DNA of 64,000 bases from assembly GCF_964063345.1 (NCBI RefSeq), contig NZ_OZ061318.1, positions 2,108,001 to 2,172,000 on the forward strand, read 5' to 3'. The notes under the pieces were generated by a model. That model was not told where the DNA came from and did no database searches. It saw only the letters and a list, made by a program, of their open reading frames with translations. This DNA comes from Pseudomonas lini. GTDB lineage: Bacteria > Pseudomonadota > Gammaproteobacteria > Pseudomonadales > Pseudomonadaceae. The position numbers and the translations under genes were made by a program. Every line of letters begins with the position of its first letter. Positions within the stretch are counted from its first letter, which is position 1. Positions 50,518 through 60,329 of this stretch are shown piece by piece.

Positions 50518-50579
50518 TTTGTGGTTTAGCTACCGACATTGGGGCTTGCCCAATCGGATTTGCCTAGGCAGAATCCGCT

Positions 50580-50779
50580 CCGTCCTAGGGGAGTAGTCTC
50601 CCACGAGCGCCATGCTCGTCCGGCATACGTCAACATACTTGGTCCTCAGACCATGGCGTATGCGACCCAAGCGTCCGCATCAGACGGATCGCAGGGTTTG
50701 ACAAGACCTATGACACGAACACCTTACCCGGGGCGGGAAGGCTGTACGTGTCATAGCCGTGTCGACCCGCCCCTTAGGA
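50580..50779 (+). promoter_or_regulatory. yybP-ykoY manganese riboswitch
   Basis: The leader of the GDT1-type gene carries the two hallmarks of this class: GGGGAGTAG (50588-50596) and CATACGTCAACATACT (from 50624), closed by CGTATGC, plus ACAAGACCTATG near the 3' end. Downstream, CTATGACACG (50708-50717) can pair with CGTGTCATAG (50747-50756). Alternatively GGGGCGGG (50730-50737) pairs with CCCGCCCC (50766-50773), which abuts the ribosome site AGGAAA. These helices exclude each other, giving a clear translational switch. Mn2+ binding is established for the class. Confidence 0.9.
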
Positions 50780-58201: not shown

Positions 58202-58344
58202 ACGTCCTACAAACGCAGTGATTGAAAGGGAAGATTCCGACAGGTTTTGAAGGTTGTCGCTCGGAAATGGGGTGGATAGGCTTTGGGGGTCGCTGCACAT
58301 CAGCGACCGGGCGTCGCAGTCCGTTCAGTTCAGCTCATTTGGTG

Positions 58345-58480
58345 CATAATCGCCGGCCCAAACCGGAGCGCTTCGGTGCTAGTCGTTTGGTTTGATGGTG
58401 GCTGTGCGCGGGATACCTTCGGGTATGCCGGGTTTCCGAATGGCTCGGTCTGCGACCCCGCGTACAGCTGCCTCCTTCAA
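58345..58480 (+). ncRNA. structured RNA leader upstream of the DUF6124 gene
   Basis: An extended -10 (TGCATAAT, ending 58350) precedes an AGCGC-TTCG-type hairpin near 58366-58380. A long closing stem follows: 16 pairs between 58397-58412 and 58457-58472, including G-U pairs. Inside are ATACC-TTCG-GGTAT (58413-58426) and CCGA/TCGG (58436-58448). The whole resembles a three-way-junction RNA. Its general form recalls C4-type antisense RNAs, which I could not verify. Confidence 0.6.
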
Positions 58481-58529
58481 TCGCGTCGCAGCGATCGTGG
58501 CAGCTAAACCTTTCATTCGGAGCATCACC

Positions 58530-58907
58530 ATGTTCAAAGAAACACCGAATCCCCCAGAAACCGACGACGTTTCCCCCTACGAATCCCTCGATTCAAAAAA
58601 ACTCCACGAAGCAGCTAACCGCGCGCTCGATCACTACCTCAACCCAGCCGCCCTCAAATCACCCGCGACCCGCAAACCGAGCACGATGTATATGGTTGCG
58701 CCGGATATCAAAGACGAAGACTTGTTGGCCCATACCTGTGAATCGTTGGCCCAGGCCAGTGTGATGGCGAGTGATTTTGCGGGGTATCTGGAAGGGCCGC
58801 ACCGGCACACGGCGATGGCGATTCAACAGATCGTCATGCTGGCCGAACTGGCGGTGAACCGGATGCTGGATAACGTTGCCATACCAAAAGCTGCGCCACA
58901 CAGCTAA
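58530..58907 (+). CDS. DUF6124-family small protein
   Basis: A 125-residue soluble protein with the pattern MFKETPNPPETDDVSPYESLDSKKLHEAANRALDHYL, which I associate with the DUF6124 (formerly DUF3077-like) family common in pseudomonads. The rest is helical (AHTCESLAQASVMASDFAGYL). Function unknown. The start at 58530 follows GGAGCATC. It lies behind a structured leader and in front of a REP cluster. Confidence 0.82.
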   Translation: MFKETPNPPETDDVSPYESLDSKKLHEAANRALDHYLNPAALKSPATRKPSTMYMVAPDIKDEDLLAHTCESLAQASVMASDFAGYLEGPHRHTAMAIQQIVMLAELAVNRMLDNVAIPKAAPHS

Positions 58908-58912
58908 TCCCC

Positions 58913-59150
58913 TGTAGGAGCGAGGCTTGCCCGCGAAGGCTTTCTCACATTCGACATGGAGGTAGCCTGACACGCCGCCATCGCGGGCAAGCCTCGCTCC
59001 CACATTGAATCGTGTATATCTGCGAGAGACTGGTCGGCTGTCAGGCCGCCTTCGCGGGCAAGCCTCGCTTCTACAGTTGAATCGTGTCCATCTGCGAGAA
59101 ATTGGTCGGCTGTCAGGCCGCCTTCGCGGGCAAGCCCGCTCCCACAGTAG
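58913..59150. repeat. cluster of four REP copies with a 72-bp tandem duplication
   Basis: Four REP copies lie at about 58915, 58979, 59050 and 59122. The segments 59005-59076 and 59077-59148 are a tandem duplication with a few changes, each containing TTGAATCGTGT and one REP. Confidence 0.88.
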
Positions 59151-59176
59151 AGCGGCGTACACCCGCCCTCCCCTCA

Positions 59177-59417
59177 CCACTCAACAGGCCGAGCGTTAGC
59201 TCGCCTGCAGCTTTTGATCTTGATCCACCCGCCCCTTCGGGAGGCTGAGTGGAGGTGTTCATCTGGGGATTGGCGCGCAGCGCCGTTCGACGCAGTCGAA
59301 CCCATCGCATGTAGGTCGTAGCGAAGCAGACCGTAGGGCGATGCCCCCAGATGGATACCGGAGCGAAGGAACGCCGAGCCTTAGCGAGGGGCCGTACGCT
59401 TGGGGCGAGCGTTTTTT
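59177..59417 (+). ncRNA. candidate structured RNA ending in an intrinsic terminator
   Basis: Domain 1: CCACTCA (59177-59183) pairs with TGAGTGG (59246-59252), enclosing CAGGC-GAGC-GTTA-GCTC-GCCTG and a GCCCC-TTCG hairpin. Domain 2: a 15-bp stem (59254-59268 with 59345-59359, with G-U pairs) encloses three hairpins: GGCGC-GCA-GCGCC (59272-59284), GTTCGAC-GCA-GTCGAAC (59285-59301) and CATCGC/GCGATG (59303-59343), a four-way junction. ACGCT/AGCGT then T6 (59396-59417) looks like a terminator. No promoter is assigned. I recall similar sequences scattered in Pseudomonas genomes. Confidence 0.6.
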
Positions 59418-59497
59418 GCTTCCTTTTTTAGGCGCTTGTAAAAAAGGGAGTCGCCGTAAGGGCGAAACCATAAGCCGCCGTTACCGCAGCAACGGAT

Positions 59498-59611
59498 ATG
59501 TACACCACCAACCAAAACATGGTCGGCCCAAAGGCCGCCATCCCGACCAAACCCGCTCCCGCAAAGGACACAAAAAAACCCGGCGCCATCACTGACACCG
59601 GGTTCTTTTAA
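59498..59611 (+). CDS. possible 37-residue small ORF
   Basis: ATG 59498 opens MYTTNQNMVGPKAAIPTKPA and stops at TAA 59611. It lies behind the structured element and a CCGTT/AACGG hairpin. Its end overlaps the yajG-type terminator on the other strand. The ribosome site is poor (AACGGAT). It may be chance. Confidence 0.25.
   Translation: MYTTNQNMVGPKAAIPTKPAPAKDTKKPGAITDTGFF
59572..59608 (-). terminator. intrinsic terminator of the YajG-type gene
   Basis: On the minus strand AACCCGG and CCGGGTT pair around a 14-nt loop and are followed by T7. It lies 18 nt after the gene's stop. Confidence 0.85.
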
Positions 59612-59625
59612 CAAGCCGCAAACCG

Positions 59626-60210
59626 TTACTCGGCAAGCACCTGACCAATCGTCGGGTCCTTGAACAAGCGGGTCAACGCGTCACTCAATACATCACTGAC
59701 CAGCTTGGTATTGGTTTCCTGATTCGGCGCCATGCCAAAACGCTGATCCAGCGACGCACCGTAGCGACCGCTATAACGACGGTTGGCATTCTGCACATCC
59801 GAACGGAACGTCGCGCCAATCGTTGCCTCAGTCACATACAGGCCTTCCTTGGGCGACTGATACTTCAGCTCGGCCAGGGTCACCGTCAATTGCGGTGCAT
59901 TCAGCGCATTGGCCGTTGGGGTAAAGCCCAGCAAGCGCACGGCCGCTTCAGCCTGAGCCTGCAGCTTCGGCAGAATCTGCGCGCCCTGCACGGTGATCGC
60001 GCTGGTCTCCGGATACAGGCCACCACGAGTCCCCAGCGTTGGCGACGGACGACCGTCCACCACGCGCACCACCACCGGCTGACCACGGCCGACCGGCGCC
60101 AGCTGAGCCGTCAGCTTGGGTTCCGGGTTCAGTTGTTGCGGGCTGTGGGCGCAGCCGACGAGGGTCAAACTGGTCACAGTGATCAAACCGAACAACAGGC
60201 GTTGCAACAT
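59626..60210 (-). CDS. YajG-family outer-membrane lipoprotein
   Basis: A 194-residue lipoprotein with lipobox TLVGC (Cys near 20). The mature part has the YajG-type pattern VVVRVVDGRPSPTLGTRGG, TLAELKYQSPKEGLYVTEAT and NTKLVSDVLSDALTRLFKD. Function unknown. The start at 60210 sets the signal peptide at the N-terminus; a longer frame to 60288 is rejected. It is divergent from a small gene behind a Pho box. Confidence 0.88.
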   Translation of the reverse strand: MLQRLLFGLITVTSLTLVGCAHSPQQLNPEPKLTAQLAPVGRGQPVVVRVVDGRPSPTLGTRGGLYPETSAITVQGAQILPKLQAQAEAAVRLLGFTPTANALNAPQLTVTLAELKYQSPKEGLYVTEATIGATFRSDVQNANRRYSGRYGASLDQRFGMAPNQETNTKLVSDVLSDALTRLFKDPTIGQVLAE

Positions 60211-60329
60211 GCTCTTCTCTCCAGAAACAGGCACTAACATTACCCGCAGTATAGCGGTGCGCCACTGCGGCGAACTAGCTTCGAACAACGATTACTGAAA
60301 TCTCTGACAAACCCGGCACAGAGCGGTTC

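Follow-up and report, generated by a model that had tools for sequence, protein, structure and literature searches.

A four-way-junction fold on a MITE-like dispersed element of Pseudomonas that probably acts as RNA

The locus

The element described here was found in a 64,000-nucleotide stretch of the Pseudomonas lini genome (the window, in whose coordinates all positions below are given; the source genome measures 6.58 Mb in one contig). Its flanking genes are a DUF6124 gene (58533-58907) and, convergent with it, a lipoprotein gene (59626-60213, Lipoprotein_16), and it occupies 59175-59503, this being a single-arm copy that starts at about 59175 and extends beyond 59417, where the initial annotation had ended it, to about 59503. 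Its neighbours on the 5' side are:

58391..58478, plus strand: C4 antisense RNA (Rfam RF01695, 69.9 bits against a cut-off of 45), 5' of the DUF6124 gene and outside the element proper
58533..58907, plus strand: DUF6124 gene (Pfam PF19619, E 2.9e-21), lying 5' of the element, toward which it reads
58912..59147, no strand assigned: REP-like array of direct and inverted repeats, between the DUF6124 gene and the element

Elsewhere in the window, a Mn2+ riboswitch (yybP-ykoY) was recognized at 50575-50699 with 56.3 bits. The initial annotation had held that no gene explains the stretch, and this agrees with the proteins of its overlapping open reading frames, six of which (one being the DUF6124 protein) gave 0 matches to NCBIfam and five 0 matches to Pfam. 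Among the 129 aligned copies described below, three of the frames remain unbroken by shifts or stops in 65, 25 and 46, so that with frames often broken and no family match a protein-coding origin is unlikely, yet reading frame alone does not exclude it. An origin from phages or plasmids was rejected, as 0 of 50,697 phage records and one of 72,556 plasmid records, the latter partially, matched the element.

Fold of the element and its conservation

Folding of 59177-59430 gave a minimum free energy of -119.2 kcal/mol (z -4.28) that none of 200 shuffles equalled; the reverse strand folds well too (z -3.38, again 0 of 200 shuffles as low). The two adjacent domains that had been drawn by hand in the initial annotation were both recovered in place. 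As described there, the second closes with a 15-pair stem (59254-59268/59345-59359) that includes two G-U pairs (59257-59356 and 59259-59354) and surrounds three inner hairpins, two of them with GCA loops. The 16th position of this stem is A-C, and the three loops are of GCA, GCA and GAA type. The parts of the element are:

59177..59252, plus strand: Domain 1, with closing stem 59177-59183/59246-59252 and inner hairpin 59186-59206
59245..59253, plus strand: 5' half of a purine platform, GA and GGA internal loops opposite 59360-59368
59254..59359, plus strand: four-way junction
59254-59269/59344-59359, plus strand: junction P1, the closing stem
59272-59284, plus strand: junction P2
59285-59301, plus strand: junction P3
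59303-59343, plus strand: junction P4, with inner stem 59314-59332
59360..59368, plus strand: 3' half of the purine platform
59372..59391, plus strand: P5 hairpin, imperfect in the window, taken from the consensus fold of 129 copies (one multi-type pair, 57% paired)
59396..59417, plus strand: terminator-like hairpin and T-run, from a scan of the window
59412..59417, plus strand: T-run, whose length tracks the A/T tract of the following hairpin
59419..59450, plus strand: A/T-rich tail hairpin
59451..59465, plus strand: short G/C hairpin 3' of the tail (98.5% of cells paired)
59477..59503, plus strand: terminal repeat, ending GGATATGTAC, whose inverse opens the left end in dimers

We collected 138 copies, which are best matches at no more than four per genome plus more from six genomes and not a random sample; some stand at orthologous sites, and eight loci have one common 3'-side gene. 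Of these, 129 full-length copies were aligned and 93 kept (less than 95% identity, at least 270 nt) as alignment A1. Three rows that carry a sister core discussed below (L126, L210, L211) were counted in the covariation of the junction, Domain 1, terminator and tail, and excluded from the G-U count.

On this alignment the junction pairs in 97.2% of cells, and 20 of its 37 pairs change on both sides. Cells with a double change number 277 against 69.9 in shuffles; none of 500 shuffles reaches the pairing or double-change values, four of 500 reach the count of further pair types, and sliding the partners lowers pairing to 31-45%. The junction fold is real and conserved through compensatory change, which is what the initial annotation had proposed to look for in these stems; it withstood the refuting condition set there, homologues with uncompensated breaks in the stems. 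The purine platform on which it stands is nearly invariant, with GA facing GA in 92 (5' half) and 93 (3' half) and GGA facing GGA in 86 and 76 of the 93 rows. Domain 1 pairs in 91.5% of cells and has double changes at 8 of 15 pairs, six of them inside the inner hairpin, which covaries. The closing stem of the domain persists in some 90% of cells, mostly by invariance. This 5' module is absent from some copies, such as L002, which matches from 59214 on.

Within the junction, G-U cells outnumber A-C cells by 143 to 16 (at 15 and 3 of the 37 pairs, sister-core rows left out). A DNA palindrome should give the two alike, and the excess therefore points to selection on the plus strand, whether as RNA or in the form of single-stranded DNA. 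The initial annotation had read G-U pairs inside long stems as an argument for RNA; the strand on which they occur is indeed the selected one, but G-T pairs form in single-stranded DNA too, and the bias alone is no proof of RNA.

Dispersal and movement

The guess that the sequence belongs to a family dispersed among pseudomonads proved right. The source genome holds 29 matches to 59150-59600, namely the window's own copy, four others that are 87-98% identical (L002 among them, without the 5' end) and a remainder of weaker, partial matches, and the element is matched in 115 of 149 genomes of the genus. A pattern scan of named genomes returned 91 stretches; among the matches listed (80), all are Pseudomonas.

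The lipoprotein gene is present in all 149 genus genomes, and the element is absent from the orthologous site beside it in 29 of 29 stretches from relatives (27 of which include both flanking genes), so that of 30 stretches only the window's own has it. The relative L075, 96% identical in the lipoprotein gene, has the upstream gene end, REP-like repeats including part of the array at 58912-59147, and the lipoprotein terminator, and has neither the C4/DUF6124 unit nor the element. At a second site, G114 has a gap of 3 bases where L038 carries its copy, about 0.49 kb of cleanly inserted DNA made up of the element and REP-like repeats; by eye the insertion shows no duplication. At a third, G083 has a short perfect palindrome of two terminal repeats instead of the element (L286, ~2600-2700), perhaps the remnant of a collapsed dimer.

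Terminal-repeat ends number 22 in the source genome, where a reversed control pattern gave 0, and seven loci hold outward-facing pairs of them spanning 0.1-1.0 kb. An inverted partner stands on the 5' side of 15 of the 138 copies and on the 3' side of none. We built a covariance model (R1) from the 52 copies that remained after removal of near-identical rows and, by hand, of L126, L210, L211, L065 and L209. It matches 35 of 148 genomes of the family (E <= 0.001) in 8 of 19 genera, most of the matches outside the genus being weak, and in the source genome gives five matches near 158 bits and nine at or below 49 bits. One other genus of the family is strong (G279, 19 matches). Its eight fetched loci hold two inverted arms each, giving 16 matches at 71-97 bits, and five of these eight dimers have both ends readable as GGTTCTTCACGGAAT-type repeats. 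The flanking 8-mers are alike at 8, 7, 7, 8 and 6 of 8 positions, against a mean of 3.8 for swapped flanks, one of which also reaches 8 because several flanks are A/T runs.

Judging by these ends and flanks, transposition is well supported in the genus of G279. In the window's own genus, none of 18 dimers has a flanking direct repeat of more than 5 bases, nor has the window copy, and the mean flanking repeat of the dimers is 0.83 against 2.19 for swapped flanks; transposition is therefore not shown in that genus. Terminal inverted repeats without a transposase gene occur in dimers of both the source genome and G279, whereas the window copy consists of one arm.

Flanking repeats of 8 A/T-rich bases together with terminal repeats are features of ISL3-family MITEs, and both are seen in the G279 dimers. 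The likeness ends at the transposase, since no ISL3-type enzyme with the element's ends was found, and at the window copy, which has one arm and no flanking repeat. An ISL3 transposase as the partner was rejected, because a search of G279 and the source genome for such enzymes gave a single match in each, not flanked by the element's terminal repeat. Openly licensed literature on MITEs and ISL3 held nothing on point.

Two cores on a shared chassis

Some of the partial matches in the source genome have the same ends and tail around another multi-branched core, with ATGGAT-type loops. This sister core matches Rfam RF01731 (TwoAYGGAY) above the gathering threshold in L031, L035 and L036 of the source genome and in L424, L425 and L427 of others, whereas L416-L418, which carry the junction, have no such match. 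The copies thus show a chassis, consisting of the purine platform, P5, the T-run with its matched A/T hairpin and the terminal repeat, that carries either the junction core or a TwoAYGGAY-type core.

The description of TwoAYGGAY dates from 2010, and in the parts of the two papers that bear on it (PMC2864571, PMC4333381) its function is only predicted. The discovery paper (PMC2864571) marks it as a probable RNA that is probably not cis-regulatory, against which Rfam types RF01731 as Cis-reg; the text of PMC4333381 on this family reports CsrA-binding motifs and tandem GAs and proposes CsrA sequestration. The window family resembles it in sharing chassis and ends within the source genome, in seating a multi-branched core on a closing stem, and in the tandem GA in a stem (PMC4333381), which the facing GA steps of the platform fit in nearly every row. 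It differs in having four arms and GCA loops in place of AYGGAY loops, two hairpins of which TwoAYGGAY requires and which are absent from the window junction. Against Rfam the window core has no match at gathering and none up to E 10, where the search returned four chance-level matches, all at 59558-59620 outside the element. Because it has neither AYGGAY loops nor an Rfam match, the window core is not filed as a TwoAYGGAY member.

Placing TwoAYGGAY in Pseudomonas on a repeated, transposon-like chassis that also bears an unlisted second core would account for the way it is scattered in that genus, and two cores on one chassis are matched natural variants for testing. By eye, one sister-core dimer (L036, ~1550-2440) sits between genes that we read as selA and fdhE, co-directional.

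These findings bear on whether the fold works as DNA, that is, as a single-strand or cruciform structure offered to a transposase or recombinase during movement and with no RNA function. We think this unlikely, though deserving of serious attention: the element appears mobile in at least one genus, REP-like palindromes surround it, single-stranded DNA tolerates G-T wobble, and both strands fold well. A mechanism that works on double-stranded DNA or on both strands would nevertheless not produce the excess of G-U over A-C, Rfam files the sister core under RNA families, and the fold lies inside the element, distant from the terminal repeats.

The sister core also invites the view that the element encodes a free-standing, trans-acting small RNA with its own promoter, possibly an RsmA/CsrA decoy as predicted for TwoAYGGAY. 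Its AYGGAY loops and RF01731 match, the CsrA-binding motifs published for that family (PMC4333381) and the GGA kept in the platform would all suit such a role. For the window copy it is improbable, as none of the hairpin loops of the junction contains GGA, the model places most of the junction's GGAs in pairs, and a scan of 58300-59700, covering sigma-70-type promoters only, found none where 0.9 would be expected by chance.

Terminator-like hairpin and tail

An intrinsic terminator had been placed 37 nt past the closing stem. The window does have a hairpin and T-run at that distance (59396-59417), but the hairpin is not conserved in the family, and its inclusion in the element is not supported. 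Across the 93 copies 56.2% of its cells are paired, which exceeds every one of the 500 shuffles by a small margin (mean 53.1), but in double changes and covariation score it does not surpass shuffling. Hairpins of -6 kcal/mol or lower that end within 3 nt of the T-run occur in 19 of 59 copies (59 of 60 sampled out of the 129) against 38 of 59 once the upstream 40 nt are shuffled, and T-runs of 3 or 4 are common. An intrinsic terminator was accordingly rejected as a family feature. That the element serves as a portable transcription terminator or insulator is very improbable for the same reasons, even though the window has this structure 3' of the junction and 34 of the 81 copies with neither a DUF6124 match nor an inverted partner lie between convergent genes (by a simple codon-usage gene caller).

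What the copies do conserve is a T-run followed by an A/T hairpin whose tract matches it in length. The length of the T-run correlates with that of the A-tract at r 0.90 over the 116 of 129 aligned copies that fitted the tail pattern, and at 0.77 by independent contrasts on a tree built without the tail. Among 40 disjoint close pairs differing in hairpin length, the T-run changes in the same direction in 23, in the opposite direction in 3 and not at all in 14. Three equal tail lengths recur in 29 of 33 tails with the sister core and in the other genus (34 rows, of which the first, L033, was dropped as a chance pattern match). For the A/T-rich hairpin and the G/C hairpin after it taken together, 84.8% of cells are paired, and double changes fill 82 cells where shuffles give 33.5; their further pair types are not above shuffled, and a shift of the pairs by +1, which A/T runs permit, loses little score (0.121 against 0.146). 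A triple helix, a pairing switch, or copying errors acting on both tracts would explain the matched lengths; tails may also move as blocks, which would inflate the count. Given these lengths, an RNA triple helix or switch in bacteria can be put to a direct test. The intrastrand triplexes treated in PMC4666352, as far as that study bears on the tail, concern G/C-rich motifs, unlike the A/T tail here.

Gene context and interpretation

Of the 138 copies, 42 have a DUF6124 match within ~1.5 kb on the 5' side and 0 have one on the 3' side; in none of the 138 does such a match occur together with an inverted partner. The largest class comprises the 81 copies that have neither; a 3'-side gene was called for 76 of these, and in 56 it runs toward the element. 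The 3'-side genes are mixed. A riboswitch or 5' leader, for which the compact, conserved, aptamer-like junction and the place of some copies 5' of a co-directional gene might speak, is hardly credible given this opposed orientation, the lack of a consistent same-direction place upstream of any one gene class, and the variety of the 3'-side genes.

We favour, with somewhat better than even confidence, the reading that the window holds a single-arm copy of a MITE-like dispersed element with exchangeable cores whose fold probably acts as RNA. Its RNA side is supported because the junction covaries, G-U cells far exceed A-C cells, the purine platform is nearly invariant, and Rfam lists the sister core among its RNA families; its mobile side, because the element is dispersed, is absent at orthologous sites, and forms dimers in another genus with terminal and flanking repeats in five of eight. 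The element would be copied into RNA by read-through, mostly within a 3' untranslated region, a step supported by the largest class, where 49 of the 64 copies with a called 5'-side gene have that gene directed at the element. Against read-through, the 5'-side DUF6124 gene points toward the element in 15 of 42 copies and away in 27, and read-through from such an outward gene would miss it. Once transcribed, the fold would most likely act as a protein-binding or RNA-stabilising module, CsrA binding being what others predict for the TwoAYGGAY core (PMC4333381). In an inverted dimer, transcription from either side would yield one sense copy, so that orientation would be irrelevant. If the fold does act as RNA, mobile elements would be spreading a structured regulatory RNA.

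The element is partly known, its sister core being in Rfam and the repeats probably being catalogued as DNA. Its published name is likely R26, R200 or R178 of P. fluorescens, compared by description only: the relevant part of PMC2718517 describes these as intergenic repeats of 352, 320 and 101 bp that number tens of copies at most, R178 having an inverted repeat of 11 bp inside it, and reports a tail-to-tail bias for repeats. Length, low copy number and intergenic setting are comparable; no RNA structure or dimer is described for them in that part. On R178/R200 in SBW25 the openly licensed literature yielded PMC2718517 alone, and on repeated small RNAs nothing; a text search with short strings led to no paper that concerns Pseudomonas by its title. 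REP/REPIN sequences with RAYT transposases (PMC3390384, in the part relevant here, concerns REP elements) are alike in that REP-like arrays flank the window copy and occur inside dimers, and unlike in that the element is longer, differs in its core and has ends of its own. The bcr repeats of Bacillus cereus, presented in the relevant part of PMC3446304 as intergenic and MITE-like or structured, with many transcribed in UTRs, are a precedent for such transcription from an unrelated host, likened by description and not by sequence. The openly licensed papers searched contained neither the four-way-junction core nor the chassis common to both cores nor the tail of matched lengths.

A fuller version, which we hold only tentatively and think rather unlikely to be right in all its parts, joins a mobile chassis swapping an RsmA/CsrA-decoy (TwoAYGGAY) core for a four-way-junction core, the sense copy made either way, a three-strand tail and a C4/DUF6124 partner. 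In the tail, a U-run of matched length would lie against the A-U hairpin as a triple helix or a switchable partner, and the C4 RNA/DUF6124 unit would be the preferred partner on the element's 5' side.

In the source genome, 45 C4 antisense RNAs score above the cut-off, and by comparison of positions 33 of the 45 lie directly 5' of a match to a DUF6124-like protein. A phage-type C4 antisense RNA thus seems tied to a chromosomal DUF6124 gene family, on which we found no paper in the openly licensed literature. At a second site of the same genome, where the C4 RNA was not detected, the DUF6124 gene, the REP-like array and the element are repeated at 93% identity (L040, 1244-2234, against window 58554-59540), and by this repeat the three may have been copied as a single unit.
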